40,428 nt of DNA, taken from positions 1-40,428 of the IMG/VR virus record IMGVR_UViG_3300010430_000174; one strand, given 5' to 3'. Under the pieces are notes generated by a model that ran no database searches, was not told the DNA's origin, and saw nothing but the letters and a program-made list of their open reading frames with translations. Origin of the DNA: a virus. Within the stretch, counting starts at the first letter, position 1. Each line of letters opens with the position of its first letter. The translations under genes and the position numbers were made by a program. This document shows positions 1 to 40,428 of this stretch, piece by piece.

Positions 1-1362
1 CGCCATGACGCTCATGTTCATGCCGAGCTGGATGCGACCCATCGGTCCACGACGAGGCTGGGCGCCTCTTCGGTAGCCGATGCCCATGTGTTCAGCACCG
101 ACTTCAGCAGCTGTCTCGAGAGTAGTCGTGTACTTGCTACGGAGGTAGACGCCGGTGCGCCTCTTCATGGCGAGACGGTCGACAGCGATCTTCCCAGGAC
201 CCTGCTCGAGATCTTGGCGAGCGAGAGACTCTGCTCTCTTCAGAAGCCTCCGTTCAACATCGTCGGGCATGAAGATCGAAGTCGGGTGCTTGTCATGCCA
301 CTTGTCGAAGAGCTTGTTCTCCCAATGGGCTCGTCGAGCGGGGAATAGGCTAAAGGCAGCCTCTTCTCTAGCGGCTGCTCTCAGCTCACCAGAGAACAAG
401 ATGCCAGGAGCACGCATCTGGTGAGTGCTCTTCTCGAGGTTCGGGAAGAAGCCCGTCGCGAACATCTCAGGCGTAGTCGTCGGGACGATGACCCGGTTGC
501 CCCGCTGTGCTCTAGAGAGCTTTCGCTCGAAGCCTGCAGGTGTTGCAGCCGAGATCTTAACAGCCTTGACGCCAGTCCAACGTGCATGGCGCCCCATCTC
601 TGTCCGCATCTCTTCAGAGCCTTCGATACCTCTGAGGACCCGCTGAAGATGGCCGTAGCCTTCGACTGCCTCGCCGAGACTTCTCGACCATGCGGAGTGC
701 TGAGTGCGGCCTACACCAAGGACCTGAGCCGGAGCCTTGAGAATCCCCGAGGAGCGGTCGTAGTGCTGGAGGAGGGCGTCGAAGAGAGGATGCCCCTTGC
801 CGTATGAGACGCCCTGTCCGATGTAGGTGTGAATGGCACCCGGTGCGCTACCAGGGCCGAAGCCGATGTGCTGCGCAGTCATGCGCATCGTGTCATCGAC
901 GGCAGCCTTCATGGCTCTCATGCGCTCATGGACCGGGGCGCCTGTTGACCCCATCATCGATGTCGCTATCCGGTGCTTGATAGCTCTGCCGAAGGACATC
1001 GGAAGCTGACCGGCTGTCATCACCTCACGGGCGAAGCCGTACTTGACACCGCCCTTGTAGGCGATGCCTGGCGCCACAGACATCGGAAGCTCGACGCGCT
1101 GGGCACCGCGCACCATCGCGAGACCCATGAGTCCCTGGTGTGCCTTGCCTGCAGTCTCGAACTTGATACCGCTACCGATGAGATCCTGAGCGATGTCTGC
1201 TGCGTACGTCCCCTTGATACCCGGGGCATGCATCGCCTGCTCGGGTGTCAGTAGACGGACGTTGCGATCGATCGCTGTGGGAGTGAGCCCGGTAATCCCC
1301 TCGAACGGGTTGATGACCTTGCCCGGCTGAAGCTTCATTGCAGGGGGCAGCTCGCCTGTCAT
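1..1362 (-). CDS. large virion protein of unknown function, partial (C-terminus beyond left edge)
   Basis: The frame opens at an ATG (1362-1360) and runs 454 codons without a stop to the left edge, so the C-terminus is missing. The ATG overlaps the TGA of the 1523-residue gene before it (ATGA), which indicates coupled translation. The protein begins MTGELPPAMKLQPGK and is rich in Gly, Ala, Arg and Met, with many amphipathic helices but no signal peptide. I recognise no enzymatic motif. Its composition resembles the preceding large protein and the hydrophobic proteins near the large terminase gene. It follows the sheath, tube, chaperone and tape-measure-candidate genes, so a tail, baseplate or internal virion role is likely. 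That role is inferred from position only. Confidence 0.75.
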   Translation of the reverse strand, partial: MTGELPPAMKLQPGKVINPFEGITGLTPTAIDRNVRLLTPEQAMHAPGIKGTYAADIAQDLIGSGIKFETAGKAHQGLMGLAMVRGAQRVELPMSVAPGIAYKGGVKYGFAREVMTAGQLPMSFGRAIKHRIATSMMGSTGAPVHERMRAMKAAVDDTMRMTAQHIGFGPGSAPGAIHTYIGQGVSYGKGHPLFDALLQHYDRSSGILKAPAQVLGVGRTQHSAWSRSLGEAVEGYGHLQRVLRGIEGSEEMRTEMGRHARWTGVKAVKISAATPAGFERKLSRAQRGNRVIVPTTTPEMFATGFFPNLEKSTHQMRAPGILFSGELRAAAREEAAFSLFPARRAHWENKLFDKWHDKHPTSIFMPDDVERRLLKRAESLARQDLEQGPGKIAVDRLAMKRRTGVYLRSKYTTTLETAAEVGAEHMGIGYRRGAQPRRGPMGRIQLGMNMSVMA

Positions 1363-4300: not shown

Positions 4301-5930
4301 GCAGAGATGCAACAGTCGCATCTGTCGACTCGAAGGCGAGCCTCTCATCCAGCGGCTCGTCAAGGTGGGTCCTGGCTCTTGCGATGGCACCTCTGTCGCT
4401 CTTGCCGGCGTAGATCTTGATCTTCTCAGCTAGAGACAGGATCTCGGGGTTGCCGATTCCCTCAGACGCAAAGTCAAATGCCAGGGCAGAGTCAACAGGA
4501 GCTGTAAGCCCACCAGGTGCAGTCGTCGTCCCCTTCCAGAACCGAGGAGCACCGGCCTGAATGGGGTGGCGTCCTGCGATGAGCTGAGCCGTCTCCCTCT
4601 GGTGAGCCGCATAGCGGGTGCCGATGTTCCGCCCACCTACACCAAAGAGAGAGCCTCGAGGAGCTGACTCGAAGAGCTCAACCCCGGCTGCACCCTTGAT
4701 GACCGCGTCTCTCCGGCGGAGGGTGTCCCATGCCTGTCTCAGTACTGACTCAGAGGTCCGGAACTCACGGCCAACACCCGTGTAGTACTGGGCCTTCTGA
4801 CGAAGAGTTGCAGTGCCTTGCTCTACGGCTCTGGCGAGGTCAGGGGCGAGCTTGCCCTCGAGGTTCCCGTAGCGCTCTAGTCGAGCCCGGCCAACACCGC
4901 TCATCCGATGGAGAGCTACATTCTCTCCGACCTGGGTGAACGACGGCCTGCCAGGAACCTGGGCGTAGAGCCTCTTGCCAACAACAAAGTTGATGTCGGC
5001 ACTGGTCCGGACACCAGGGGCGATGTTGATGTCCGACCCAACCCGGCCTGCGAACTCACCCCGTCCGAGTCTCCGGAGGGGGTTCGCAATGAGATCGATC
5101 GGCCGGAAGCCAGTGAACGGAACCCGGAGCCCGGAGAGTACGTTGTATGCGCTCCGGGCAATCGTCGTCGGCTTCATGAAGCGCGTGTCGACGAAGCCAG
5201 GAATGTCACCTGCGAGATCTATGAAGAGGCCTCCGTGGCCTCTGGTCAGCGCCTGCCCTTCATGCAGGATTCCAGTCTCAACACCCTTCTCGATAGCTGC
5301 GACATTCCAGTCGCCGAGCTGTCGACGCATCACCTTGAAGTGATTGCTCTGCTGCTGCCTTGGCAGGCTGAGGTCTCGCATGATGTCGCCGACCGTTGCA
5401 GGTCGGAGACTAGAGAGCCCCGCTCGATCCAGGTTCTCGTAGCCCTCATCCTTCAGGCCCCGTCGGACCATCTTGAAGAGCTCGCGCTGGTGCGCCGCAT
5501 TGCCCCGGGTGTACGTCTTGCCTGTCTCGGTCTCAACCTGCTGGACAAGCTTCCACGCCTGGGTGAAGTCATCAACGAGCTCGACGCTCTTAGATCGAGC
5601 TGTCGCAGAGGCGCTGCCGAGGTAGTACTCCTTGAGGCCTTGGTAGAACTCGGCTACTGGCTTGCCGACAGCTCTCTTTGCGAACTGGCCAGTGTGATGA
5701 ATCCCACGCAGGACGTAGTCATCAGCGATGACTCTCTTGCCGAGGAACCATGCGCCGGCGGCAAGGCCACCGATCTTGAGGGCGTCCTCGAGCCAGCCAC
5801 TCTCCTCAGCATCTGCTGCTAGCTTCTGCCGGTCAGAGACCTCACGTACCGCTGCCCTGCGCCGGATGTATTCCAGCGTTCTAGAGTCGAGGCCCCGTTC
5901 TTCAGGGGTACGCGGAGGGAGGTCGGGCAC
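1359..5930 (-). CDS. very large virion protein; tail tape-measure or internal virion protein candidate
   Basis: This 1523-residue protein starts at a GTG (5930-5928) that shares one base with the TAG of the previous gene and has an AGGTGG-like ribosome site. It lies directly after sheath, tube and two chaperone-like genes, where contractile-tailed phages normally encode the tape measure. At least three membrane-like stretches are visible: residues about 51-65 (LKIGGLAAGAWFLGK), about 727-757 (glycine-zipper type, Gly/Ala-rich) and about 1220-1257 (also glycine-zipper type). Tape-measure proteins often carry such segments. Against the assignment, it lacks the long continuous coiled coil usual in tape measures and is Arg/Tyr/Gly-rich, so an injected internal virion protein is an alternative. 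No lysozyme or peptidase motif was seen. Confidence 0.6.
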   Translation of the reverse strand: MPDLPPRTPEERGLDSRTLEYIRRRAAVREVSDRQKLAADAEESGWLEDALKIGGLAAGAWFLGKRVIADDYVLRGIHHTGQFAKRAVGKPVAEFYQGLKEYYLGSASATARSKSVELVDDFTQAWKLVQQVETETGKTYTRGNAAHQRELFKMVRRGLKDEGYENLDRAGLSSLRPATVGDIMRDLSLPRQQQSNHFKVMRRQLGDWNVAAIEKGVETGILHEGQALTRGHGGLFIDLAGDIPGFVDTRFMKPTTIARSAYNVLSGLRVPFTGFRPIDLIANPLRRLGRGEFAGRVGSDINIAPGVRTSADINFVVGKRLYAQVPGRPSFTQVGENVALHRMSGVGRARLERYGNLEGKLAPDLARAVEQGTATLRQKAQYYTGVGREFRTSESVLRQAWDTLRRRDAVIKGAAGVELFESAPRGSLFGVGGRNIGTRYAAHQRETAQLIAGRHPIQAGAPRFWKGTTTAPGGLTAPVDSALAFDFASEGIGNPEILSLAEKIKIYAGKSDRGAIARARTHLDEPLDERLAFESTDATVASLQGRRASVPSLDPLRPGKTGIRAADHKTATSPIEFFAAQGTGATMQARIAGTAEAVTDIGNFMTSRLNDLLGWTTGVGFRPTVGKGVVGGLGATAGNVAKLYGLNEAFHATLGYANYADYLFESTIGMVLPEGYDSPKKLAIRMYQGFQLARAYVRDAIGITGSFKGMEDLFPGMIESGVSWTGRTVAPVVAGGALGGFAGAAAGLATSLLVGGSDSTTTAEETLAEFKGQKLVPIRKSRWWMLGRQPFEGGQIDHFAPHWTRRALSDYRFTESQYGSKGEYYSSVSRLPTLHNLFGIKGVFQEGGIVHGGDVHLAKKHARTRPYPNTPGIDYEKMVRMAQILSSKGPYDAPIGAGQRLGYGAIGQSAPLKEEGMVGGIRRFGDKISELGGIYKFLFSDLPGDGTDGEFKLAKHSLIDSRSRAFYDASLGGMGGMTELYRRFVPTQDSKQGYNPVPNAMPDWLPGVRSRFRKDQTQPNRFDFTVGDPYARVSGGEYRLPGKGYEALHRLHSGTPGIYDPMDRFMILSDVAPSSEAYKHYKTIVEGWQKSGVLDVHWSEKFQTTTTQVKQKMERYKFAHRRFTGTITDPDPEGTEKRYNALEKVAGGLWEVATHDLAPRVGDVVPLIGPLIAEKGGLQQLSPIEHYQRYQVQGEEFADWRSPYKAFVRHKYFNATAGDPFTAAASGATAGYLLGSNPIAGALMGTVSGAIFGGGSVARQISGTEVPGFRQREYEMKEWFDNFAYTKSRVLESRAQAMEDPALAEYYRDAKRRTVAGLNFSERSSWAFTAQALKAMDRNNRAYFLHFLDMPEEAQREVTPYMPRHLKPVMARATEQGDRLFSGYRKMARMSADKRAGMYFSQTGSLPQASWAGWHPDVPMDAIKIKFIDSGVNSVAADIHKFDLFAEHRVRAAAFDNLPIPVGDLSGFDMDPSMSVDLQKELADAGFQNVRFGFGTGPSHGVNWNMTRDTFSRMRAGIGEALR

Positions 5931-26840: not shown

Positions 26841-29058
26841 CGGTAGTCCCCGACTTACGTGTCTCGATCTTGATACCGCCCTCGCAGTTATCAAGAAACA
26901 CGGGGTTTGCCACAAGGCTCAGAATCAGAGTCTCATCATTCAAAGGGATCTCTCGCGACTTGTCATCCGGAACGATCATAGTTACGTGATCCGAACCAGC
27001 GTCTTTCAGTGCTTCGAGATATCCAAGGTGATAGGCGCCGTTGATTCCGCGGTCGAGCTTTCGAGTCAGAAGAACATCAACAACCTCGAGAGCCGGACGC
27101 ACCTGGGTAGGTGACGCCTTGTTCTCAAAGCGGCCGTCCTTAGGACTGATGCCAGCCGAAATCATAAGACTCTTCTCGAAGCGGTGCAAGTCCCGCTGGC
27201 GGAATGTTTCGAGGTAGGTTCTCATGAGGGACCGGGTCTTAAGAGGAGGTACTGAAGCTTCAGGGGGTGAAGCCTCTCTGTATCCATCTTCCCAAGCATC
27301 AATGAATGCCGGCGTCGCTACCCTCGAGATTTCCTTCGTCGCCTCAGTAACGATCTCCCTCATGTCGTGCTGGAGGCCGGTTCCAACACATTCGTGATGC
27401 TCCTTGATGACTTGATCACCGCAGAGCTCTAGGATCCGAGCCAGGTCGTTCTTGGCCACTCGAGGCTTAGTGGCAGACTTCCCATGCTGGTTCGAGGGCT
27501 GGGTTGCAGAGCTCGAACGCTTCGAAGCCTTCGCACCAGAAGCCTTTGCCTTGGCACCTCCACCCCCAGATGCACCACCCCCACCAGCGCCGGCGACAGG
27601 CTTGGGCTTTGCCTTCTCGATCTCGATGCTGTTCTTGGTCTCGGCTTCCATGAGCGGGATGAGGTGCTTGTTGAGGAACAGTCCCTCTTCCTCGCTGTCC
27701 GAAATCTCGTCCCTCTCGAGGTACTCCAACCGGAGCTCTTCGCGGGTGATACCACCCTGAACATAGAGATTGAGGCCGTGGGTCTCCTGGGCACGCTGGG
27801 CTTCAGCGTCGATCGGAGGCCAGGAGAACACCACCCTGTTGTCGGGGTTGACGTTGTAGTCACCCTCCATCTGGAGAATGCGGAAGAACTTCATGTTGAG
27901 GTATGCAGCAATGACCTGCTGGACCTCGGTGCATGCGTCTACAAGCACCTGAGACATGACCTGGGCAGTCCCTCGGTTGGAGGTGTCTCCTCTACCGAGG
28001 TCTACCTCAGAGACTCTGAGCCCGCTCAGCACACGTGCTTCGTAGTGCTGGATGTAGGGCTTCAGATCGAAGAGTTCCCCATCCTGACCAACGAGGACCA
28101 CTTCGTGGCGGTGGGTCGTTACAACGAAGCCCTCCTGGCTAAGCTCTTCCAGCTTGCCGTGCGCCATGCGGACCTCTGAGATGGGGGTCCCGCTTGCAGG
28201 GTCTACGGTGACCTCTGCCGGGAACTTGTCGTTGCCGACTTTCCAATGGAGAAGCGGGAACGCGAACTTGTGTCCTACATGCTCGGCCAGCATCTCCAGC
28301 TTACGGAGAGCCTTGATGTCCTCCATCGTGGGGATGATGAAAGGCGTGCCGAAGGAGTAGCCGTCCTTGAGGGCTGTCGTCACATGGACTACGTCGTGGT
28401 GCTGCCAGATCTTCTTCTTCTGGTTCCCAGGCACCTCTTGAACGTAGGCATAGGGGCGCCCACTTGCATTCTGGCGGACCTTGACTGTTGCTGGGTCCGG
28501 GATGGAGATCGCAGAGATGGGGTTGAGCTTCTTGCCCCACATCTTGATTCGATGTCCTGTCGAGCGCATGGGGTCTCTCGAGAAGACCCAGTAACCATTC
28601 GAGGTCACTACTGTGTTGCGGACGAGTGATCGAAGCATGTCCTCGAAGGGCCTGTCGGAGATGATCTCGATCTCTTCGAGCCGGCGCTTCATGTACTTGA
28701 CAGCCTCAGGGTCTTTGCCCTTCAGCCGGTAGCCGTTCTTCATGATCATCTCGACGTGGCGATCCACGGAGACACGGAAGTACGACTCGAGGTCCTGGAA
28801 CTTGATGACCTCGGTGAGGTCGTAGACAGGGGCAACTTCATCGCCGGCAGTACGCCTGGACGAGAGCATCTTCTGCTTACCCGTCTGGAGAGTGAGATCC
28901 CGCTTACCGGGGCGTCTCTTCTCCTTGACGGCCGTGCCGAACTCACCAGGGGAGGATGTCGGAGATCTCGTGATCGAGGTCTTCAGGTCGGAGAGGTCCA
29001 ATGAGAGACCTTCCAGGGCCTTCTCAGTCCTTGTCTTCCAGAGGCCGAACCAGGCCAT
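26833..29058 (-). CDS. portal protein with long C-terminal extension
   Basis: The protein has 741 residues; its ATG shares a base with the preceding TGA. Residues about 70-480 have portal character: VIKFQDLESYFRVSVDRHVE early, NPISAISIPDPATVKV and WQHHDVVHVTTALKDGYSFG (a typical portal segment with a G-x-P follow-up), and ALRKLEMLAEHVGHKF near the stem. It forms the dodecameric vertex ring through which DNA passes. After a Gly/Ala/Ser-rich linker near residues 485-520, a further 220-residue helical domain follows that I cannot assign; a head-morphogenesis (MuF-like) fusion is possible but its signature is not clear. Order between terminase and protease supports the call. Confidence 0.8.
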   Translation of the reverse strand: MAWFGLWKTRTEKALEGLSLDLSDLKTSITRSPTSSPGEFGTAVKEKRRPGKRDLTLQTGKQKMLSSRRTAGDEVAPVYDLTEVIKFQDLESYFRVSVDRHVEMIMKNGYRLKGKDPEAVKYMKRRLEEIEIISDRPFEDMLRSLVRNTVVTSNGYWVFSRDPMRSTGHRIKMWGKKLNPISAISIPDPATVKVRQNASGRPYAYVQEVPGNQKKKIWQHHDVVHVTTALKDGYSFGTPFIIPTMEDIKALRKLEMLAEHVGHKFAFPLLHWKVGNDKFPAEVTVDPASGTPISEVRMAHGKLEELSQEGFVVTTHRHEVVLVGQDGELFDLKPYIQHYEARVLSGLRVSEVDLGRGDTSNRGTAQVMSQVLVDACTEVQQVIAAYLNMKFFRILQMEGDYNVNPDNRVVFSWPPIDAEAQRAQETHGLNLYVQGGITREELRLEYLERDEISDSEEEGLFLNKHLIPLMEAETKNSIEIEKAKPKPVAGAGGGGASGGGGAKAKASGAKASKRSSSATQPSNQHGKSATKPRVAKNDLARILELCGDQVIKEHHECVGTGLQHDMREIVTEATKEISRVATPAFIDAWEDGYREASPPEASVPPLKTRSLMRTYLETFRQRDLHRFEKSLMISAGISPKDGRFENKASPTQVRPALEVVDVLLTRKLDRGINGAYHLGYLEALKDAGSDHVTMIVPDDKSREIPLNDETLILSLVANPVFLDNCEGGIKIETRKSGTTDA

Positions 29059-30980
29059 CAGGCATCCTCTCTAATGATCGCGTTCAGGACAGCATCGGGA
29101 ACGATACCGAGGCAGAACTTACGGTAGTTCTCAACGGTCACCTGTTGCTCCTGACTGCTGATCTCAGTTCCTGGTGCTGGGATCGATCTTTGACCGTGAC
29201 CTCTTTCGATGGCCATCTCACCAGGAAAGAACTTTTCTACCACCTCGGGCGGTAGTTTCAATGGACGCGGCATGTTGTCGAAGAAGTTGTCATCTTCACC
29301 CGGATCAGGTAGCGGGTCAACTCCGTCGCCTGTCCCGGACCCATCATCAGCGCAATACTCCACGGTTGCGAGGATTCTGTCAAGGATAGTGAGGATGACC
29401 CGGGCCCTGCGGAGGTCGTACATCGTGCCCCAGCGGAGGAACATCTCTCCTCCCTCTTCCTCGAGGCCGACCATGAACTTACGAACGAGGCTGAAGAGCT
29501 GCTCACGGAAGAACTGGATAGCCTGCTGGATCATCTGCAGCAAGTCCCAGATGAAGGGGCAGTAGGTCAAGTCCTCCATGACGTCCGGGTCGAAGCTGAT
29601 AGTCCACTGAGCAACGTCGTCGATGATGTTGTCGAAGGCCCGGTGGATGTGGGCAATGATCTCGTTCTGGATGCTTCGAATGGCCCAGTTTAGAACCCCT
29701 CGAGGAGACATGACCGTGAGCGTGAGCCCGTTCTGCATCACGCCGATAGAGACCGCAATGATGTCTCTGATCTTCTGAATGCGCTGAACGTCGTTGGTCT
29801 TCACCATGAATCTAGCGAAGCAACAGAGGACGTCTAGGGCAAACCCGCTGGTCATGACTCCAGCGATGGCATTGATGTTGCGGTCGGCGATTGAGGTCCC
29901 TTGAACCAGAGATCGGTAGTAAGCCGTCGAGATCGTCGATGAGTCCGGATACTCAATCCGAACTCTCCTCCCTGTCCCGAAGGGATTGGGGAAGAGGTTC
30001 GGGACACCAGGGGTCTCGTGATACACGGAGGTTTCGTACTCGAGGATCGTGCGGTGTCCTTCTGAGTACTGATGTGAGTGGTAGTACGAGGTGACGATCT
30101 GCTCTCGGGTGTCCCTGAGGTCTCTGTAGGCCACCCAGGCCTCGTACCCGTCAGGCTGTCGAGTGATGTAGTTGTCGGCGTACGCAGTGATCACCATAGG
30201 GTCTGTCGCGCCCTGGATCTCCTTGAGCTGTCTGTGCATGCCGTCGCTCTCGACTAGGCGCCTTGCCTGAGCGAGGATCTCACTCCCAGGCAGAGGGAAG
30301 TTGAATGAAGGCTGGTTGACGGCGAAGAGGACCACGTCCTCCTGCATCCCAAGGATCAGCATCATCGCAGCCATTGAGATAGCGATACGGAGCTGAATAG
30401 GTCCGACCTCAGACCCTGCAGGCTGCTTAGCAGCACATGCCTCTTGGTGCTCGATACCCTGGTGTTGTCCGATCAGCTGGTTCAGCAGGAGCCAGAGAAG
30501 CCAGGGCTCCATGCTAAGGAGGAACTCGTCCCACTTAGAGAGTCCGCCTCCACCTCCACGCATGTGCTTCTTGATCTTGAACGCGTCGGTACTGGCGTCA
30601 CCGGTGAACTCACCAACGATCTCGAACTTCAGCTTCCGAGAGCGGCGTACCTGCTCGTCGTACATCTGCTTGTAGATGTCAAAGGAGATAGTGCTGCCAT
30701 CAGACTTGTCTCCTCCACCCATTTGGCGACGTACAGCATCTCTGACACGCACAGCGTCGATGTCGACTGGGATGGAGAGCTTCTCAGCTAGAGGCTTCAC
30801 CTCTCTGATCAGAGCTGTCGCCTTGTTGGCCACGTAAGCCTGGTAGTCGAAGAGATCTCTGAGGTCTGCGTCCGTGATCTCTTCGTTGCTCCCATCCGGG
30901 ACGTCTCGATCGACGTTCTCTAGTTCGCGGATGGTACGGAAGCGTTTGGCTTCCGCAGGCTCGTTTTGGAAAGGCTTCAC
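29058..30980 (-). CDS. unknown 640-residue protein between terminase and portal
   Basis: The protein starts at a GTG overlapping the terminase TGA by four bases (GTGA), and its stop overlaps the portal ATG, so it is fully coupled into the packaging genes. The first 140 residues are charged and helical; a Gly-run (RGGGGGLSKW near residue 145) follows. Residues about 158-170 (EPWLLWLLLNQLI) and 196-220 (LRIAISMAAMMLILGM) are strongly hydrophobic, like membrane or buried helices. Further helices with Trp/Ile/Phe (CPFIWDLLQMIQQAIQFF) lie near residue 470-490. The C-terminus is Pro/Asp-rich. I recognise no family. A large conserved-looking gene here could be a portal accessory or internal protein. 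Confidence 0.7.
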   Translation of the reverse strand: MKPFQNEPAEAKRFRTIRELENVDRDVPDGSNEEITDADLRDLFDYQAYVANKATALIREVKPLAEKLSIPVDIDAVRVRDAVRRQMGGGDKSDGSTISFDIYKQMYDEQVRRSRKLKFEIVGEFTGDASTDAFKIKKHMRGGGGGLSKWDEFLLSMEPWLLWLLLNQLIGQHQGIEHQEACAAKQPAGSEVGPIQLRIAISMAAMMLILGMQEDVVLFAVNQPSFNFPLPGSEILAQARRLVESDGMHRQLKEIQGATDPMVITAYADNYITRQPDGYEAWVAYRDLRDTREQIVTSYYHSHQYSEGHRTILEYETSVYHETPGVPNLFPNPFGTGRRVRIEYPDSSTISTAYYRSLVQGTSIADRNINAIAGVMTSGFALDVLCCFARFMVKTNDVQRIQKIRDIIAVSIGVMQNGLTLTVMSPRGVLNWAIRSIQNEIIAHIHRAFDNIIDDVAQWTISFDPDVMEDLTYCPFIWDLLQMIQQAIQFFREQLFSLVRKFMVGLEEEGGEMFLRWGTMYDLRRARVILTILDRILATVEYCADDGSGTGDGVDPLPDPGEDDNFFDNMPRPLKLPPEVVEKFFPGEMAIERGHGQRSIPAPGTEISSQEQQVTVENYRKFCLGIVPDAVLNAIIREDA

Positions 30981-33082
30981 GGTGAGATGCGCCTCGGAGA
31001 ACCTCTGAAGCCACTACGCAGGGGGTTCCTACCCGACTTACCCTTAGTCTTGTACCCATTCATGGTCTGCATGAATTCCACGATCTCTGAGGTGTACTCT
31101 TCCTGCCCAGAACCAGTTCCGGTGCTCCTACCTGGCGCAAGCTCCTCCCGAAGCTTCTGAAACTCCTGTCTACGAGCCTTCCGGGCTTGCTCCAAGGACT
31201 TTCCAGGATACCTGTTCTCCAGGTCATCCGGATCCGTCCCTACAGGAGTGAGCCCAACATACATGTCACTGACTGGCTTGTAGTCATTGAATTCAGAGAA
31301 GTTGACAGCGAATCCCATGACCGCTAGTGCGAGTGCCGTGAGAGTGTGCTCGTAACCCTGTGTGTACCGAGGGTGACCCTGCGGCGAGTACTTCTCGACT
31401 CTGAACTCTCTCATCTGCTGGACAAGACCGACCTCGAGGTACGCGAGCTCAGACTCAATCAGGGCAACGGTTGTGTCTTCGTGTGCCGGCAGGACAAGCT
31501 GTCCAGAGGAGATCCATCCAGCAAGGAGGTCGATCATGAAGGGCTTCGCGTGCTTCTTAACTACGAGTGAAGCATTGCGCGGATCCCTGAACTCCACCTT
31601 CTCGGACATGTTCACTGCTACGAGTCTCTTGGCGTAGTTGAGCTGAGCAGCAGGCTGCTGCTTGTCGATACGGTGTAGGAGCTCGACCTGGGTCGCGCCA
31701 TAGCCTTCGTCGACGTAGACGTAGTCACAGCCCCATTTCTTGTCCATGAGGACCACCGCTTCAACGCCGGCGATCTGTGTGAACTCCTGCGGTCGGATGA
31801 TCTGCTTGTCGACTACAGCCGCTCGAGCCCCCTTCTTACGCTTGGGGTCGATCTCCACCACCACGAGGTGCGTTCCTGTGAGCTTGTTCCAGTCGACTCC
31901 AAGGATGTAGATACGGTCCTTGTGCCTCTGCATCTGGTCGTAGTCATACTGGCGAAGGGCACTATCCAGGTCGGACTGTCTGAAGACACCCTCTGTGGGA
32001 GTGCCGAACTCAGCATTGAACTCACGGTCGTAACCAGACTGTGAGTACATGGACTTGAAGAAGTTCTCAGCCCTAGGAGTCCACCGAGGGCTCTCCTTGG
32101 AGATGAACCAGAACTCCTTGAAGCCCTGTCTTTTGTCTGTGCAGACCGTGTGGAACTTAGACCTGGCTCCAGTGGGTGTCGTCGACATCCACATGCGCAC
32201 CCGCTGGTTTGAGGACAGCACAGCGAAGATGGCTTCGATGTCCTCATCGGCCATGTAGTCGATCTCATCGAAACCAATGGCATCCGCGTCCTGACCACGA
32301 ATCTTGTCAGAGCGGGCACCCGTCTTACGACCTGAGGAGAAGCCTCGAACAACAGAGCCGTTGTAGAACTCAATCTCCCAGTAAGGAGACTTTCTGACGG
32401 CCTTCACGGAGGCCCTCATGTTGTGAGACCTGCCGATGAAGTCTTCGATGTTGTCGAAGATCTTCTTCACCTGCGCCTCGTAAGGGCAGATGATCAGGTA
32501 CTCGAACTTGGTCTGGACGTAGCCATCCTTGAAGAAGCAAGAGTAGAGAATGTCCCAGCAGAGGACTGTCGTCTTCCCTACGCGTCTGCCGGCCCTGGCT
32601 GCCTTCCAGAGGTTCGAACACCTCATCATGTCGGCCTGATACCAGTCAGCCCGCATGTTGAATTCGTACTCAATCCAAGCAACAGGATCGATGCCGATCC
32701 GATACTGCTTGATCTCCTCCTCGTCCATCCCAGACTGCGCTAGGTCCTCGTCGGTGATCGAGGCTCCTCGCCATGTCTTGTCGCCCTTACAGGGCATCTG
32801 CCATTCACCCTTGTCGAACAGCTTCTCATTGGCAAGCCGGTCGTAGTAGTGGACGCAGCGCTTACAGAAGTGCTCGTCGGGCCCCGCCATGTAAGGGTCC
32901 CCATCCCGGTTCAGGATGAGCGTCCCGTCCTCCTCGAACTGCTGCCTGCCGATGGGCGAGTACCCGTTCTTGATGTAGTCGTTCTCGGGGATGTACGATG
33001 TAGACGCAACGACAGCCTCAGCCTCTCGAGGCTCAAGCCATTGCCTCTGGGGTGCGGCGAGGGGGTCTACTGAGTCGGTCAT
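30977..33082 (-). CDS. terL: terminase large subunit (ATPase and nuclease)
   Basis: The protein has 701 residues; its ATG overlaps the upstream TGA (ATGA). The ATPase motor is clear: Walker A ARAGRRVGKTTV (Lys170), Walker B AIGFDEIDYM (Asp272, Glu273), and the coupling motif MSTTPTG near residue 299. The nuclease domain shows GVDWN (Asp397), YVDEGYG (Asp458/Glu459) and a final helix YEHTLTALALAVMG. In that last helix the usual Asp of the metal site is not where I would expect it. An N-terminal knuckle with Cys73, Cys76 and Cys98 may bind zinc. The enzyme cuts concatemeric DNA and pumps it into the procapsid at the portal. No intein or frameshift is present. Confidence 0.93.
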   Translation of the reverse strand: MTDSVDPLAAPQRQWLEPREAEAVVASTSYIPENDYIKNGYSPIGRQQFEEDGTLILNRDGDPYMAGPDEHFCKRCVHYYDRLANEKLFDKGEWQMPCKGDKTWRGASITDEDLAQSGMDEEEIKQYRIGIDPVAWIEYEFNMRADWYQADMMRCSNLWKAARAGRRVGKTTVLCWDILYSCFFKDGYVQTKFEYLIICPYEAQVKKIFDNIEDFIGRSHNMRASVKAVRKSPYWEIEFYNGSVVRGFSSGRKTGARSDKIRGQDADAIGFDEIDYMADEDIEAIFAVLSSNQRVRMWMSTTPTGARSKFHTVCTDKRQGFKEFWFISKESPRWTPRAENFFKSMYSQSGYDREFNAEFGTPTEGVFRQSDLDSALRQYDYDQMQRHKDRIYILGVDWNKLTGTHLVVVEIDPKRKKGARAAVVDKQIIRPQEFTQIAGVEAVVLMDKKWGCDYVYVDEGYGATQVELLHRIDKQQPAAQLNYAKRLVAVNMSEKVEFRDPRNASLVVKKHAKPFMIDLLAGWISSGQLVLPAHEDTTVALIESELAYLEVGLVQQMREFRVEKYSPQGHPRYTQGYEHTLTALALAVMGFAVNFSEFNDYKPVSDMYVGLTPVGTDPDDLENRYPGKSLEQARKARRQEFQKLREELAPGRSTGTGSGQEEYTSEIVEFMQTMNGYKTKGKSGRNPLRSGFRGSPRRISP

Positions 33083-33855
33083 CTATAGTGCATCATCGAG
33101 GCTTCATTGCCCAAGACAGCCCTCGTAGAGAGATGGCTGTTGTGGATTGCCTGGATAGCGCGGGCCCTCTGTGTTTGTGCGCTTCTAGTGTCTACGAACT
33201 CCTCGCCGAGTTCAATGTCTCGGCGGTGGTACTTCTTGAGGCCGGGCTCGTAGTCGGCGATTGACTTCGCGATCATAGTGCCGGCGAAGAACCCAAGCTC
33301 TAGCGACGCAGAGATCCAGACCATCCGAGACATGGCCTTGAAGTTCCGCCAGACTGAAGTTCTCGTTGCGAACTGAGCACCGTACTTCGCCCGGACTTGG
33401 TGATGGCTTTGAATCTCGCCCCTGATACCACCAGGGAGCGCTCCTCCGCCTGCGGCCTGGTTCATGAGCGCAGGGCTTCGCATCGTCCGATTGACAGCAT
33501 CTCTCGCGTTGAGGTTCGCGTGCCCTCTCCCTGTCCGGCCTGCATCTCTCATCGATCGATAGGCGTCGCCACGTGGAGAGTAGTGAGGGTTCGGAGATGA
33601 CGCACCAGTCTGGAAGCCACCAGGGCCGTGAGCCGGCTGCCTGTGATAGTTCCGGAAAGCCGCCCCTCGAGCGTCTGCGGGGAGGCCTATTGCTGTGTCC
33701 AGAGATGTCATAATAGCCTTACGGCTATTGAACATCTTGTGGCCCATCTCCAGACCCATCCAGCCAAAGACGAACCCCAAGTTGTGGAACATCGGGGGCT
33801 CGAACTTAGACTCTTCCTGGGCGGGCTCCCAGAAGTCGTAGGGTCCTCTTGCCAT
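33079..33855 (-). CDS. Arg/Gly/His-rich hydrophobic protein, possible internal virion protein
   Basis: The protein has 258 residues from an ATG with AGGAAG upstream, directly before the terminase. A hydrophobic N-terminal segment (FHNLGFVFGWMGLEMG, residues about 23-38) is followed by a Arg/Gly/Ser/His-rich, low-order middle (residues 65-150), then a helix with VWISASLELGFFAGTMIAKS. It lacks a signal peptide. Its composition matches the two proteins further upstream and the large proteins at the left end. Such proteins could be packaged in the head and ejected with DNA. That is an inference; no family was recognised. Confidence 0.6.
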   Translation of the reverse strand: MARGPYDFWEPAQEESKFEPPMFHNLGFVFGWMGLEMGHKMFNSRKAIMTSLDTAIGLPADARGAAFRNYHRQPAHGPGGFQTGASSPNPHYSPRGDAYRSMRDAGRTGRGHANLNARDAVNRTMRSPALMNQAAGGGALPGGIRGEIQSHHQVRAKYGAQFATRTSVWRNFKAMSRMVWISASLELGFFAGTMIAKSIADYEPGLKKYHRRDIELGEEFVDTRSAQTQRARAIQAIHNSHLSTRAVLGNEASMMHYR

Positions 33856-34004
33856 TACTTCTTCTTCCTATCGAACACCATCAACTGGAGGGTGTGAGCA
33901 GGACCGTCTTCAGGGAACGGCTGTCGACACTCGTATGTAATCGTGCCGTTCTTAGCGACCCTCTTAATAGGGTCCTTCCCGCAGACAGGACACTTGATGG
34001 ACAT
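33855..34004 (-). CDS. 49-residue zinc-ribbon-like protein
   Basis: A short frame fills the gap between two hydrophobic-protein genes exactly: ATG at 34004-34002 (sharing a base with the upstream TAA) and TAA at 33857-33855 overlapping the next ATG. An AGGA lies 10 bases upstream. The protein starts MSIKCPVCGKDP and has a third Cys in TYECRQPF and a His further on (PAHTLQ), consistent with one small zinc-binding knuckle. The C-terminus is basic (FDRKKK). Perfect overlap at both ends is good evidence that it is translated. Role unknown, possibly nucleic-acid binding. Confidence 0.7.
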   Translation of the reverse strand: MSIKCPVCGKDPIKRVAKNGTITYECRQPFPEDGPAHTLQLMVFDRKKK

Positions 34005-35413
34005 TACTTGATCTTCCTTGAGTGCGACCTGTGCAGCGAGAGAGTAAGGTTCGGACCGTAGTTACGGGTCGGACCTCGAGGCATCATGCTGATACCGGCT
34101 CCCCAGTTGACAGGGTCTACCCCAGGGGTGCTCCCACCTCTCATCTCGCCACGTGCTCGCCTGTTGTGAGCAGAAGCTTCATTGACGATGCCAGCAAAGA
34201 TGCCGACACCTGTTGCTCCGGCATAGATAGGAGCTCGACCATCACGGTTGAGGATCTTCTTCCTCTTCAGCATGTTCCGACCTGAGGGGATCGAGGCGAC
34301 TCCAGGGATTCCAATTCGACCCGGGTAACGAGAGGCTGCGATCTCGCCGATTGTTCCTCCGGGAATGGTCCATCCGGGGTGAACAATCTCACCCATGGTT
34401 GCGCCGCGGATACCTGCAGACATCGGGAGTTTCGCCCCCGCCTGTCGGCCGATGTTGAGAGCAGCCTTGAAGGGCATTGACGCGACTCCGGCTGCTGTAC
34501 GTGCTACGCCGACTCCAATCATGCCGCCGTACCCAACGCCTCTGAGCCCCATCCTCGTCAGCTGGAAGGCCGCGAGGGGAGTACCGATTACTGTCTGAGC
34601 TGCCATTCGGGCAGTGCCGAGTGCCGCCATCCCTGCAAGCTTCGCCCCGCCCTGATAGAGAGAGCCCTTCCCGAAGAAGTTGAAGGGACGCATAGCAGAT
34701 TCGTAGACGCTGCCTTGGATTCCTCCAGGAGCCTCTGCGCCCATCGCCTGACGACGCTGACCGTAGCGTGTACGCCGATCAAAGCTACCGTCCCGGTTTG
34801 TTCTCTGTCCCGATCGTGCAGAGCTGCTGCGCTCTCTCCCTATATACGGACGCTGGCGTGCACCAACGAACTGACCGCCAGCTGTACGCCCTCTACCAGG
34901 AGGCCGAGCGTTCCGGGCCCCTCTGGGAAGATTGTCAATCGAGCTCCACACTCCAGTGTCTCTTCTGAGACTGGGATCGAGCATGCCCCGGACCTGTGCA
35001 GTCGAGTGACCACTAGGTCCAGTCATGTAGTGCATCTTGTTGCCGCGCATACGGCCAGCAGCAGAGAGACCAGACCCGACGATCCCTCGAGCACCTGTGC
35101 GATAGGCTCCGACCCGCAACCCGAAGGAAGCTAGCCCCATCGCAGTCTGCATGAAGCCGCCCTGCTCTTGTCCCCAACGAGACTCAGAGATCTGATCGAT
35201 GATGTTTGCACCACCGAATTTGGCGCCCATGATGACCGACGCCTTACCCATAGACGCATAGCGCAGGCTAGAGCCGTAGAGCGCGGACTTCAGAGTTCCA
35301 CCGACGACTCCGCCGACGGTCGGTGAGACGAGGTTGGCTCCAAGATTAGTGACACCTGCACCAGCGCGGCCCATGCCGCCGAAGATCTTGGAGAAGGCCA
35401 TCGGGATTCCCAT
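34004..35413 (-). CDS. Gly/Arg-rich glycine-zipper protein, possible internal virion protein
   Basis: The protein has 469 residues; its ATG overlaps the upstream TAA. A second in-frame ATG four codons later (MAFSKIFGG) is an alternative start, and neither has a strong ribosome site. The ends of the protein contain alternating small-residue helices (VVGGTLKSALYGSSL; GVGYGGMIGVGVARTAAGVA; IYAGATGVGIFAGIV) typical of glycine-zipper membrane insertion. Residues about 150-225 are Arg/Ser/Gly-rich and probably disordered. No enzymatic motif. It may pack in the capsid and enter membranes at infection. That role is a guess from composition and neighbours. Confidence 0.6.
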   Translation of the reverse strand: MGIPMAFSKIFGGMGRAGAGVTNLGANLVSPTVGGVVGGTLKSALYGSSLRYASMGKASVIMGAKFGGANIIDQISESRWGQEQGGFMQTAMGLASFGLRVGAYRTGARGIVGSGLSAAGRMRGNKMHYMTGPSGHSTAQVRGMLDPSLRRDTGVWSSIDNLPRGARNARPPGRGRTAGGQFVGARQRPYIGRERSSSARSGQRTNRDGSFDRRTRYGQRRQAMGAEAPGGIQGSVYESAMRPFNFFGKGSLYQGGAKLAGMAALGTARMAAQTVIGTPLAAFQLTRMGLRGVGYGGMIGVGVARTAAGVASMPFKAALNIGRQAGAKLPMSAGIRGATMGEIVHPGWTIPGGTIGEIAASRYPGRIGIPGVASIPSGRNMLKRKKILNRDGRAPIYAGATGVGIFAGIVNEASAHNRRARGEMRGGSTPGVDPVNWGAGISMMPRGPTRNYGPNLTLSLHRSHSRKIK

Positions 35414-36009
35414 TAGAAGGGACCGATCTGATCACCACCTCTTAGGGCATTGATCGTTGAGTAGCCGAAGAGGGCGGCTGCGCCGACCGTCCCGGCCTTG
35501 CCTCCGAATCTAGACATGCCGGCGCCGACGCCGAGTGTCATACCTCCTGAAAGGGCAGACCTCCCTACGTTGGAGATGGGGTTCTCGCCGATCGTCATGT
35601 CAAGGGCTGCACCACCACCGATGATTCCGGGGATGCCTATTCGAGACATCATCCGTCTGCGCTGAAGCTGCTTGAGCTGGTCGCCTGTCCTCCAGCCAGA
35701 ACTGCCCTCCATCATGTCTGAGAAGTTCTTGCCGGTGAAGTAGTCGCCAAGGGTGTAGTTGCCCTTCACCTTGCTCGCCTGCTGAGACCCGTACTCGAAC
35801 ATGCTCTGGGTCCCGCCCCAGAAGCCTTCGCCTGTTTCGAGAACAGCATCCTGACGCCACGATCGACTAGGCACATTACGACCGAACGATGTCCGAAGCT
35901 TCTGACGGGCTTCTGACTCGGCGAGGTCGATCGGAGAGAGGTGCGAGAGCTGCTTCCGGACAAACCGGCCGAGCTTGCCTCCCATGTAGTCGCGCATTCC
36001 TGCGATCAT
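35413..36009 (-). CDS. basic, Gly-rich hydrophobic protein, possible internal virion protein
   Basis: The protein has 198 residues from an ATG with GGAGG about 7 bases upstream; the next gene's ATG overlaps its stop. The N-terminal half is basic and helical (MGGKLGRFVRKQLSHLSPID). The C-terminal third is made of Gly-rich hydrophobic helices (RIGIPGIIGGGAALDM; LSGGMTLGVGAGMSRFGG; TVGAAALFGYSTINAL). It shares this style with the 469- and 258-residue proteins, forming a group of three. No motif was recognised. The run of such genes between the terminase subunits is unusual. Confidence 0.6.
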   Translation of the reverse strand: MIAGMRDYMGGKLGRFVRKQLSHLSPIDLAESEARQKLRTSFGRNVPSRSWRQDAVLETGEGFWGGTQSMFEYGSQQASKVKGNYTLGDYFTGKNFSDMMEGSSGWRTGDQLKQLQRRRMMSRIGIPGIIGGGAALDMTIGENPISNVGRSALSGGMTLGVGAGMSRFGGKAGTVGAAALFGYSTINALRGGDQIGPF

Positions 36010-39000
36010 TAGGCCCCTCCGTGGATGGACGAGTGGTACTGGCGTTCAGCATGACTGACGACAGGTTTTTGTCTACCCCTATACGTTCTGGGCACCGTGG
36101 GGTGAAAGTGGAGCTGAGTCCCCTGATCTCTCAGCTTTGAGCGGTTTGCGACGTCAGGTCTCGAGGCGTGCGTTCCGAGTCCTGCGTGTCCGTGAGTGAG
36201 CGGAATGCAGCCCGTTCTGGGTCGACCACCCTTGGTGTCCTTCTTGTCGACTGCATCCCAGCTGAAGCTCTGCTCGCCCTCGGGTCCTGTGCCTTCACTC
36301 TGGATTCTCGGTCCAGGCTGCGAGTCCAGGATCTCAGGTGTTCTACCTCTGCGAGGTGCGTACTGAGCCCGGTCAAGGTTCACGGACTTGTGCGTGATCT
36401 GAGGCTGGGGACCATTCACCAAAGTGGGAGGTCCAGGGTCAACTCCCTCGAGCTCTCTAGGCTCCAGCATCCTTCGCGGAGGAGCGATCTGAGGCATCGG
36501 GTCATGTCCGTCTGTCGTAGACATCCCTGACCTGGCAATGTTCTCCGTGGCCTCATCTAGGAGGTTGTGCTTACCAGCTACGGCTTCGGCAGGAGGAGGA
36601 GCCTTCTCGTTGTCTCTGCCAGACGAGTAGACAGAGAGGTTGGAGAACGGCATCTCTGAGGGCTCAATGCCATGAGGTCCTGCCCAGTCCGAGGACGGCT
36701 GGCGGATACCCTCAATGAAGGACGTCGTTCTCTCTTCCTTCTCTCTGTTGTGACTTCCCAGGAAGTACCCGACCGTCAAGAGCGCGGCTGCAGTCTTAAG
36801 GACTCCACCCTTCCCCTCGAGTCCGTTGAGACCCTTCCACTTACGCCCCTGTCGAGCAGCTTGCTTCTCGGCTGCTCTGGCGTGCACGTCGTCAACACCT
36901 GCAGCGCCTACGTAGTCATGGGCCAGCTGCGTAGCTCGACGGGCATTTTGAGAGTCTGCGTACTCGTTCTCAAGCTTGTTCCAGACATGGGTCTGCTCGT
37001 CGTTCTGAAGGACCCGGGCCATGTCCTCTTCAGCGATGGCCGCGATCTTGACGTCGTAGAAGCCCTGGTGTCCCTGGCTTGTAACGATGTCCTGTTTGGC
37101 AGCTGTCTCCATGAAGGCCTGGTACCTCTGCGCGTTCGCAGCGGGGATGCCTAGCTCCTCATGGTGCTCAGCCATGATCTCGACGACGTCTCCGAGGCGT
37201 CCGCCTAGACCGAAGGCAAAGGGACTCTGGACGCCCGCCATCGGGACGCCCATGTTCATACCTACTAGCTGGCCATACTTCTTGGTGTCACCGAATAGAG
37301 AGATGTGCGTGTCATCTGCCGTCCGATACCACTGGTTCATCATCTCGACATCAGACATCGGCTGACTGATGACCTGTCCGGCGTCGTCCATCTTCCAAGG
37401 TCCAGCGACGAAGGATTCTTCCTTGGCAGCTGCTTCTCTCAGGATCGTCATGAAGTCTGTGGCTTGGTCAGTTCCAGAGAGCCTGTTGGCCCACCTAGAC
37501 GCATGACTCTCGGCTGCCTTGAACTCGTTGCCTGTAAGGTTCTGAGCGTCGAGCCATCCGAGCATCCGCTGCCGGACCTTGTCGTACTTGAGGTCGTCCA
37601 CCAGCTCGCGGAGAGGCTGGTTGTACTTGATGACCCCGTAGTGCCTGCCACCCTTGGTGATCTCGTGAGGCGCGAAGTCAATGATCTCACGACCAACAGC
37701 AGCCTTGAGCTTGGCCCGGTCGGTGATCTGAGTGCTGTAGGCCTCGTCTGCCCACATGCGGTTGAAGCGGATCTCGTGGAGTGAGGTCCCGACCTCTAGA
37801 GGCTGGACCTTGCCCGTCCGCACCAGGTCGGAGACCTCTGTGTGGCCGGACTCGTAGATCGCCCGCATAAGAGTCGTAAAGTCGTAGTCGACATTCCACG
37901 CGGCAATCGTGATTCCGTGATCAGCGTTCTTCCAGTGTGAGACAAGAGCGCCGGCAACGTCCTTAAACGAGGTGTAAGCGGCCTTTCCACCCCTCTTGCT
38001 CTCGAGAGCCTCAAGCAGGACTCGTCGGGCTCCTGTGTTCGGAACGCTTTGGTGAACTCTGGTAGCAGGATCCCAGAGCCCCTTGGGCTGGCTGTTGCTG
38101 CCGTAAGAGTCCGGGCTTGCGGACATGGCGTTGATCGCCTTGTCGACCTTGGCGTTCTTGCGACCAGCCTGCAGATCGGCCATGTCGGCATCAGTGAAGT
38201 CGTTTAGGAGAGCTTCGTCAAAGGTGCCTGACAGCCAGGTGTGGATGTGGAGTCCGTCGGCCCCATCAACAATCCCAGAGCGATAGCTGAACCCGCCATT
38301 CTTGATAGCGGACGCAGGCGCATATGCGACCTCGGAGATGCGCAGCGGATCAAACGGACTACGACGCTTCCGTAGCCACTTACCAGAAGCTACGTCATAG
38401 GTCTCAGAGAAGGTGGTGAGACCCTGGGCCTCGATGTCCAGGTATGCGACCTGGTGAGGCTTCCACTGCCCTTGGCTTCGCCCACCGGGGAAGTCCGGAG
38501 GATGAGGCTTCATCACATCCCACTTAGGCATGTGAGGAGCGTGGCCACCCATCGGGGGCCTGATACCGAGCTGCTTAAGGTCTCGTTCGGTGATCTTCCT
38601 TACAGCACCTGGGTCGATGACCTGGAGGTGGCCTCCGTGCCAGCCGAGGTTACGGCCACCTGTGTCCCAGAAGACGTGACCTTGTTTGGCGAGCTGTACA
38701 TGTAGGTTGAGAACGGCCTCGGACTCGAGGTTGATACCACGTGCAACTTTAGCTCTCGGCAGGACCTCAAGGACCCAGGGGTCCTTACCAGGTGTCTGCC
38801 AGGTCTTTGTCTTGAATGCCTGGAGCATGCCCCGGAGCTTGGGCCTCGAGAGAGGTGACCCAGGGATCATCCCCATCTGGCCGAATCTCAATACACGGTC
38901 GCCGAACTGATACGCAACAGCTTCTTGCCCAGCAGCAAGGGGCTTGATCCCCGGGATCCGTGCGGCGAAGCTTCGTACCGCCTTGATACCCGCAGGGTCG

Positions 39001-39830
39001 CCCTGAAGGTGTCTGAAGAGGCTGCTTGCCGTCCCTTCTTCTCCCAGCCACATCGGAACATCGTGTCCCTCGCGGCGGAGCCAAGTAGGAAGGCCAGCGA
39101 GCTCGTCGAGCCCTTCACGGATCCGGTGGAAGTAAGAGGTACGCCCACCCGGGAAGTCATAGACCGGGTGGCGCTTCATCGCCTCGAACTGGCCAGGGCT
39201 GGTCGGATAGGACCGACGGATGCCCTGCCAGCCGATAGAGGCAGACTTGCCCGTGAACGCCTGCAGGCGCCACATGTGATGCTGGTGGCTGTTCCTGTTC
39301 TGGCGGCCGGTGTCGTAGCTTGAGACCTCAGCAGCCTGGACGTTCAGGAAACGGACGTCGCCATAGACACCGAGGCTGAGAGTGTCAGCATCGACGATGT
39401 CAATGGCATCTCTACCAAAGGTCCCCAACACGTTTGCGGCAGGAGAGCGGGTTGCCTGGTCGTAGAAGTGAACTGGACCAGGAGCTTGTCCGCCCCACTT
39501 GCCCCGGCGTTGCGTCTGGGCTTCCAGCTGTGCTGCTGAGAACTTGGAGTGGAAGCGAGTGGACCTTCCGAAGTCCGTGTTGTAGCTCGAGTAGCCTGCT
39601 CGGATCAGCTCCTCGTTGAGGTTGACCTCACCCTCAGGAGTCTGAACGATGATGTAGGCCAGCCGGCGATTGTAGAGATCTCGGCTCTGCCTATGAGTGT
39701 CGATCTCGAGGCGGATGTTCTCGGCGTTCGCGAGGATCTTCTGTACGAACGCTCGAGCTTCTTCGCCCTCTCCACCCACACCGGGGCGTGAGATCTCCCC
39801 TCCAGTGAGCATGTCATAGAGGTGACGCAT
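36009..39830 (-). CDS. multidomain enzyme: permuted SNase-like, kinase-like and DnaQ-like exonuclease segments
   Basis: The protein has 1273 residues; its ATG directly follows a TAG and has GAGGT 7 bases upstream. Residues 20-113 match the C-terminal half of staphylococcal nuclease (GEEARAFVQKIL, DLYNRRLAYI with Arg55, NEELIRAGY). Residues 137-172 match its N-terminal half (VDADTLSL with Asp149; VRFLNVQAAE with Arg160, Glu168), so the order is permuted. Residues 296-412 look kinase-like: GQEAVAYQFGDRVLRFG, FWDTGGRNLGW (Asp389, Asn394) and VIDPGA (Asp406). Residues 460-800 show DnaQ-like motifs AYLDIEAQG (Asp464, Glu466) and WNVDYD (Asn646, Asp650); the third motif near His776 lacks its usual Asp. 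A membrane-like helix (1010-1025) precedes a Pro-rich tail. Role unknown; DNA processing at packaging or on entry is possible. Confidence 0.8.
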   Translation of the reverse strand: MRHLYDMLTGGEISRPGVGGEGEEARAFVQKILANAENIRLEIDTHRQSRDLYNRRLAYIIVQTPEGEVNLNEELIRAGYSSYNTDFGRSTRFHSKFSAAQLEAQTQRRGKWGGQAPGPVHFYDQATRSPAANVLGTFGRDAIDIVDADTLSLGVYGDVRFLNVQAAEVSSYDTGRQNRNSHQHHMWRLQAFTGKSASIGWQGIRRSYPTSPGQFEAMKRHPVYDFPGGRTSYFHRIREGLDELAGLPTWLRREGHDVPMWLGEEGTASSLFRHLQGDPAGIKAVRSFAARIPGIKPLAAGQEAVAYQFGDRVLRFGQMGMIPGSPLSRPKLRGMLQAFKTKTWQTPGKDPWVLEVLPRAKVARGINLESEAVLNLHVQLAKQGHVFWDTGGRNLGWHGGHLQVIDPGAVRKITERDLKQLGIRPPMGGHAPHMPKWDVMKPHPPDFPGGRSQGQWKPHQVAYLDIEAQGLTTFSETYDVASGKWLRKRRSPFDPLRISEVAYAPASAIKNGGFSYRSGIVDGADGLHIHTWLSGTFDEALLNDFTDADMADLQAGRKNAKVDKAINAMSASPDSYGSNSQPKGLWDPATRVHQSVPNTGARRVLLEALESKRGGKAAYTSFKDVAGALVSHWKNADHGITIAAWNVDYDFTTLMRAIYESGHTEVSDLVRTGKVQPLEVGTSLHEIRFNRMWADEAYSTQITDRAKLKAAVGREIIDFAPHEITKGGRHYGVIKYNQPLRELVDDLKYDKVRQRMLGWLDAQNLTGNEFKAAESHASRWANRLSGTDQATDFMTILREAAAKEESFVAGPWKMDDAGQVISQPMSDVEMMNQWYRTADDTHISLFGDTKKYGQLVGMNMGVPMAGVQSPFAFGLGGRLGDVVEIMAEHHEELGIPAANAQRYQAFMETAAKQDIVTSQGHQGFYDVKIAAIAEEDMARVLQNDEQTHVWNKLENEYADSQNARRATQLAHDYVGAAGVDDVHARAAEKQAARQGRKWKGLNGLEGKGGVLKTAAALLTVGYFLGSHNREKEERTTSFIEGIRQPSSDWAGPHGIEPSEMPFSNLSVYSSGRDNEKAPPPAEAVAGKHNLLDEATENIARSGMSTTDGHDPMPQIAPPRRMLEPRELEGVDPGPPTLVNGPQPQITHKSVNLDRAQYAPRRGRTPEILDSQPGPRIQSEGTGPEGEQSFSWDAVDKKDTKGGRPRTGCIPLTHGHAGLGTHASRPDVANRSKLRDQGTQLHFHPTVPRTYRGRQKPVVSHAERQYHSSIHGGA

Positions 39831-39923
39831 CTACGACCTCGGGAGCATGGTGAGCAGCTTGTAGAACTCGCTAGGAGTCCTGGTCTTGAGGAGGAGTTTC
39901 TTTTGGCGGTCTGTTACCGCCAT
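39831..39923 (-). CDS. possible 30-residue peptide before the multidomain gene
   Basis: An ATG at 39923-39921 opens a frame of 30 codons (MAVTDRQKKLLLKTRTPSEF at the start) ending TAG exactly next to the ATG of the 1273-residue gene. It overlaps the end of the small-terminase candidate in another frame. There is no clear ribosome site, and no motif. It may be translated by coupling or may only be a remnant. Confidence 0.25.
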   Translation of the reverse strand: MAVTDRQKKLLLKTRTPSEFYKLLTMLPRS

Positions 39924-40428
39924 CTTCGGGACGATAGTGTGGAGAGCTCTCACCGGCGCCGAGATTGAGAGTTTTGAAGGAGAAGGCGTCTCCGGCATTA
40001 TCTTTCTCCGTCTGCTCAGCGAGCCTGTTGAGTTCTGCAGCCTTTGCCTGTGCGGCAGCGGCCTGAGTCGACGGATCCTGCCAGCCAAGCTTGCCGGCTT
40101 CGACCTTAGCACGCGGGGTTGCAAGCAGTTCCTTGAGCTTACGGAGGATGGAGGAGCCCTGCTTGTTCATGAAGTCCAAGACCGGGTGAACCTTCCTGAC
40201 CTCGATCGGGTCGCCTCTCTGGTTCACTCCGATGATGTCTGTCGTCATGACCTCAGGCTCCTCGGAGAGGTGCCAGGCCACACGCATCTGAATCACCATG
40301 TCCATGGCCAGGAGGCCCAGGAGGGACCTCACAGGGATGAAGTCAGGGTGAGCCTCGTCTACCTGATAGGCCAGCATGAAGTCGTGGATCCAGAGATCCT
40401 TGGTCATCTCTTCGACAGGGCAGTCTTC
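39871..40428 (-). CDS. terminase small subunit candidate (P27-like), N-terminus at right edge
   Basis: The frame is open from the TAG at 39873-39871 to the right edge. An ATG at 40407 would give 178 residues but has no ribosome site, and the upstream codons (EDCPVEE before it) look coding, so the true start probably lies outside the window. Helices DFIPVRSLLGLLAMDMVIQM and then GVNQRGDPIEVRKVHP, LRKLKELLATPRAKVEAGKL resemble P27-family small terminases, which end their core with an L..TP..R motif after a conserved HP. The C-terminus is Ala/Glu- and Pro-rich. The protein recognises phage DNA for packaging. It is well separated from the large subunit gene, which is unusual. Confidence 0.6.
   Translation of the reverse strand, partial: EDCPVEEMTKDLWIHDFMLAYQVDEAHPDFIPVRSLLGLLAMDMVIQMRVAWHLSEEPEVMTTDIIGVNQRGDPIEVRKVHPVLDFMNKQGSSILRKLKELLATPRAKVEAGKLGWQDPSTQAAAAQAKAAELNRLAEQTEKDNAGDAFSFKTLNLGAGESSPHYRPEDGGNRPPKETPPQDQDS

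Follow-up and report, generated by a model that had tools for sequence, protein, structure and literature searches.

A candidate circularly permuted staphylococcal nuclease at the start of a large modular protein in a phage packaging region

Staphylococcal nuclease (SNase) is a classic protein-folding model. Laboratory work has produced or proposed domain-swapped and permuted designs of SNase (PMC5347425), and in the limited collection of literature searched we found no description of a permuted SNase of natural origin. Among phages, the BtI1 hub of the 0305phi8-36 lineage carries an SNase, and the occurrence of SNase in virion proteins of this lineage is already known (PMC2147016). In the portions of Iyer et al. 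2017 (PMC5512222) considered here, polyvalent proteins are described as large phage proteins that mix unlike enzymatic modules, kinases included, and they are predicted to be packaged and injected.

The window, that is, the whole stretch of 40,428 nucleotides analysed here (IMGVR_UViG_3300010430_000174), is a phage fragment whose terminase has relatives in Moorella phage MTATph1, Bacillus phage KLEB27-3 and Acinetobacter phage ME3. Its packaging region encodes a 1273-residue protein in the slot between a gene resembling the terminase small subunit (TerS) and the gene of the large subunit (TerL). We consider it probable that this is a modular slot protein of the polyvalent type, in which the N-terminal module is one circularly permuted SNase closing in cis and the protein is probably delivered. 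Nature seems here to have rewired the well-studied SNase fold. The preliminary description of the locus had called such an arrangement new in a phage packaging region; its novelty stands as regards a natural permuted SNase in the literature searched, but SNase in normal order was already known in hub proteins of relatives (PMC2147016).

Two nuclease segments in reversed coding order

The gene and its SNase-related segments are as follows.

36009-39830, minus strand: 1273-residue multidomain protein P0001 (ORF list), between the TerS-like gene and TerL
39831-39840, minus strand: in-frame TAG directly 5' of the ATG, with GAGG (sequence)
39492-39773, minus strand: SNase C-terminal half, residues 20-113, helix 1 to helix 3 (Pfam, PDB, AF2, Foldseek)
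39435-39491, minus strand: joint between the halves, 19 residues (114-132), without a copy of the module linker
39315-39434, minus strand: putative SNase N-terminal half, residues 133-172, with Asp147, Asp149, Arg160, Gln165 and Glu168 (profile tests, AF2 with permuted alignment)

Residues 22-112 are homologous to the C-terminal half of SNase. They matched positions 23-105/107 of the Pfam SNase family (PF00565) at E=5.8e-9 with the whole protein as query, the match with residues 1-200 as query reaching E=2.8e-10, and the PF00565 score of 36.8 bits against a cut-off of 21 was contributed by the C-half only. The solved S. aureus nuclease was matched by phmmer (E=1.8e-6), positions 66-149/151 of NCBIfam EcnA were matched by the same segment (E=2.8e-8), and the best Foldseek match to the AlphaFold (AF2) model of this half was SNase.

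The second segment is more divergent. Residues 145-168 (IVDADTLSLGVYGDVRFLNVQAAE) align with the DGDT...VRLxGIDTPE segment of SNase. When PF00565 was searched in native and permuted order, as had been proposed earlier, the C-half was matched but permutation added almost nothing to the score, probably because PF00565 covers little of the N-half, and custom SNase profiles were therefore built from 61 normal-order sequences. The full-length custom profile gave 6.5 bits on residues 114-217, a score reached by 7 of 20,000 shuffles, and the N-half-only profile gave 2.6 bits on the second segment alone (185 of 20,000 shuffles) versus 35-56 bits for true N-halves left out of the model. Setting residues 131-176 before residues 15-116 raised the SNase profile score to 61.8 bits, compared with 52.5 bits for the first half alone and 54.4 bits in native order. 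With half 2 shuffled and placed ahead of half 1 the score was 51.4 +/- 0.7 bits, and 61.8 bits was reached in 4 of 20,000 shuffles; when 1010 other windows were taken from the 1273-residue protein, none scored as high. N-half fragments of normal SNases fell on residues 140-172 in MAFFT alignments, with a placement that varied with how the fragments were cut. The assignment of residues 133-172 as a divergent SNase N-half thus has good, although not overwhelming, support from these comparisons.

In the alignments, the Arg35/Glu43/Arg87 triad of SNase corresponds to Arg160/Glu168/Arg55, and the Asp21 and Asp40 positions to Asp149 and Gln165, respectively. DADT stands in place of DGDT, as in the SNase of genome G007, and AAE is found where SNase has TPE. 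Among the SNases sampled, the Asp40 position is Asn in 27 and Gln in one, a tail protein of KLEB27-3. Considering that Asn is common and Gln present in these SNase sequences, Gln at the Asp40 position may be compatible with activity. The preliminary description had read the C-half match first and the N-half match second, with these five residue correspondences and an R-to-E spacing of 8; the order agrees with the Pfam match and the in-context score, the correspondences and spacing were correct, and both halves have profile support, that of the second being weak when it is taken alone.

The coding order of the SNase halves is reversed in the 1273-residue protein. A GAGG ribosome-binding-like motif lies 6 nt 5' of the ATG, and the TAG immediately 5' of this ATG makes an earlier start in the same frame impossible, so that no extension could hold a normal N-half. 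A six-frame scan found no N-half other than residues 133-172. A normal-order N-half upstream or in a different frame was ruled out by the TAG and the scan together, and with the halves reversed, we regard the module as a permuted SNase variant and not an ordinary PF00565 member.

No second permuted SNase was present in the collections searched, and the arrangement is seen in one sequence only. Direct searches of viral contigs and whole-protein tblastn against phage genomes yielded no relative of the 1273-residue protein, and among some 165 SNase matches across 160 genomes none was in permuted order. Nine matches to the C-half only were inspected, and the N-half, where found, was upstream. The permuted order was also sought with a degenerate DNA pattern, limited in reach by its fixed spacing and preference for some codons; it gave one match in viral contigs and six in genome contigs, none of which was an in-frame permuted SNase by eye. 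Every SNase-bearing relative found has the halves in normal order.

Predicted folding and competing explanations

We compared AF2 models from different alignments. With C-half homologs only, the first half was mostly at pLDDT 70-92 (pTM 0.51) and residues beyond 115 were not confident (pLDDT about 26-36). When unpaired homologs of both halves were supplied in permuted order, which biases the model, residues 21-118 and 133-170 became mostly confident, with block mean pLDDT of 74-94 (21-110) and 79-91 (131-170) and a pTM of 0.66. Strands were predicted at 133-138, 144-147, 150-152, 158-161 and 164-166, and the first of these falls outside the supplied N-half fragments. The first half superimposed on solved SNase with an rmsd of about 1.9 Å with the N-half rows versus 3.3 Å without them (92-95 columns); Foldseek alignments are sequential and unable to trace a permutation. 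Structure prediction, as suggested in the preliminary description, gave two confident halves when N-half homologs were supplied, but not a confident half 2 otherwise. Joint folding of the two SNase segments is supported, not proven, by these models.

In the reading we prefer, residues 1-215 would be a single SNase domain with circularly permuted coding order, in which helix 1 to helix 3 are encoded first and strands 1 to 3 afterwards, and the 19-residue joint would bridge the natural SNase termini. The halves would close in cis into one OB-barrel carrying the Arg160/Arg55/Glu168 triad, with Asp149 as the one certain metal ligand, and the barrel may cut nucleic acid in a metal-dependent manner. 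Polyvalent proteins suggest by analogy that it is probably packed into the virion and delivered along with the phage DNA; its nuclease, kinase-like and exonuclease-like modules might then act on nucleic acid and proteins of the host.

It is unlikely that the region is instead a decayed SNase, in which a truncated C-half remnant is followed by residues that resemble an N-half by chance and the whole has a structural or binding role but no nuclease activity. The low score of half 2 alone, the changes of Asp40 to Gln and TPE to AAE, and the absence of a fold at residues 133-172 in the model without N-half rows would be expected from decay, whereas the in-context score (p about 2e-4), the correctly positioned Asp149, Arg160 and Glu168, and the Arg55 and core positions retained in the C-half would not; the Asp40 position also varies among the sampled SNases, as described above. 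An exchange of two half-domains between chains, in a dimer or with another chain, in place of closure in cis, seems to us quite unlikely, as the 19-residue joint should suffice for cis closure and both halves are confident in the single-chain model at pTM 0.66, although half 1 by itself is not expected to make a barrel and engineered SNase domain swapping has been published (PMC5347425). Very unlikely, in our view, is a functional permutation in which the joint at residues 114-132 makes a split nuclease switched by cutting, dimerisation or unfolding during tail delivery; if true, the phage would be spared digestion of its own packaged DNA. An assembly artefact of the metagenome, with pieces joined or reordered at the 5' end of the gene, is scarcely credible: residues 1-460 were found in one contig only, but the frame of 1273 residues is uninterrupted and has a ribosome-binding-like site, GC is similar across the gene segments (0.57-0.66), and the TerS-like gene directly upstream occupies the same place as in L110 and L014.

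A slot of varied modules between terminase genes

Beyond the permuted SNase, the 1273-residue protein contains the following regions.

39141-39185, minus strand: module linker copy 1, residues 216-230, EAMKRHPVYDFPGGR (motif scan)
38520-39125, minus strand: tentative kinase-like region, residues 236-437 (motifs read in sequence, hhalign)
38475-38519, minus strand: module linker copy 2, residues 438-452, DVMKPHPPDFPGGRS (motif scan)
37521-38453, minus strand: DEDD-exonuclease-like region, residues 460-770, LDIEAQGL ... AWNVDYDFTTL (L110 homology; family by motif only)
36609-36809, minus strand: conserved hydrophobic stretch (1008-1026) and PFSN-x-S-x-x-x-SG motif (to 1074)

The motif scan placed one FPGGR linker after the SNase module and one after the kinase-like region; none lies between the SNase halves, which favours one SNase module. 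A similar motif occurs in the slot protein of L014. Alignment of residues 236-437 to the kinase modules of L017, L019 and L028 by hhalign followed the expected diagonal, but at E=0.27. No useful match to a solved structure (PDB) came from profile searches with the exonuclease-like region. The hydrophobic stretch and PFSN motif are kept in L009 and L110. Several unlike enzymatic modules may be combined in one polypeptide, of which the SNase half is certain, the exonuclease-like region is assigned by motif and homology, and the kinase-like assignment is weak.

The slot is bordered by the following genes.

39871-40407, minus strand: TerS-like gene, upstream border (phrog_9231 terminase small subunit, E=0.005)
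35413-36009, 34004-35413 and 33079-33855, minus strand: three Gly/Ala-rich genes between the slot gene and TerL
30977-33082, minus strand: terminase large subunit, downstream border (phrog_2, E=2.9e-30; Pfam Terminase_6N)

Portal and major head protein genes are also present nearby, in agreement with the earlier placement of the gene in a phage packaging region. Homologs of the TerS-like gene occur in L011 and L014 and in about 30 loci, the Gly/Ala-rich genes have homologs in L009, and the one at 33079 has them in most loci having upstream sequence. The order of TerS-like gene, large protein, small Gly/Ala-rich genes and TerL is kept in about 30 relatives, and the slot is thus conserved.

The contents of the slot differ among relatives. 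The slot protein of L110 carries a normal-order SNase; that of L044 is exonuclease-like, with a weak DEDDh match (E=0.009); that of L028 (3417-7781) combines exonuclease-like, DnaJ and Bud32-like kinase modules with a repeated IEGL/FGSG linker; that of L017 (2950-5646) has a kinase and a different repeated linker; and that of L009 (1-1425) has a weak Cas4-like nuclease match (E=0.005). With its neighbours conserved, the slot in this large-phage lineage appears to swap modules of nuclease, exonuclease-like, kinase-like and DnaJ-like kinds, and new delivered enzymes could therefore be sought there.

Several further observations were made in the window and its relatives. L019:1-2334 is, together with the slot proteins of L028, L017, L009 and L110, among the large modular slot proteins with exchanged modules, and the linkers that join these modules are repeated and particular to each phage group. 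In G007 (C1:12017-12361; L093), a normal-order SNase lies in a 1839-residue protein downstream of the terminase, preceded by a copy of the IEGL...FGSG linker seen in L028 and followed by a similar linker-like stretch. MTATph1 27546-30680 (L090) encodes a protein of roughly 1950 residues with a seemingly degenerate normal-order SNase without catalytic motifs. The TerL genes of L003 (535-2922) and L111 (11979-14981) look intein-interrupted. L002 (IMGVR_UViG_3300010392_001917) is identical to the window terminase over residues 176-701 and ends short of the SNase gene, and the 1523-residue protein at 1359-5930 of the window had no PHROG match.

Comparison with known systems

Compared with the SNase family (PF00565), the 1273-residue protein shares half 1 over 91 residues and the equivalents of Arg35, Arg87, Glu43 and Asp21, and differs in its reversed halves, Gln for Asp40, AAE for TPE and far larger chain. 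The BtI1 hub, ME3 gp037 and MTATph1 CDS0032 likewise have an SNase within a giant protein of related phages, but in normal order, and these proteins belong to the baseplate hub or tail region instead of the slot beside the terminase. With the polyvalent proteins the 1273-residue protein shares its large size and, putatively, its unlike modules, and in the portions of that source (PMC5512222) considered here we found neither a permuted SNase nor an exchange of nuclease modules in a fixed slot between TerS and TerL.

Another close case is L110 (IMGVR_UViG_3300020219_000074), which shares the exonuclease-like core, hydrophobic stretch, PFSN motif, tail and gene neighbours; residues 464-1074 matched L110:3598-6060 by BLASTP at E=3e-33, in addition to the conserved tail. 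In contrast, the L110 protein lacks the N-terminal modules and has its SNase near the C-terminus, in normal order and with Asp40 kept. The two proteins are homologous, so that homologs here differ both in the end that carries SNase and in the order of its halves; the two SNase sequences are not close, which suggests separate acquisition. Derivation of the permuted SNase from the L110 or G007 copy was unsupported, its C-half being nearest to other SNases. If true, a natural permuted SNase alongside a homolog with normal order would show how a fold comes to be rewired in nature.
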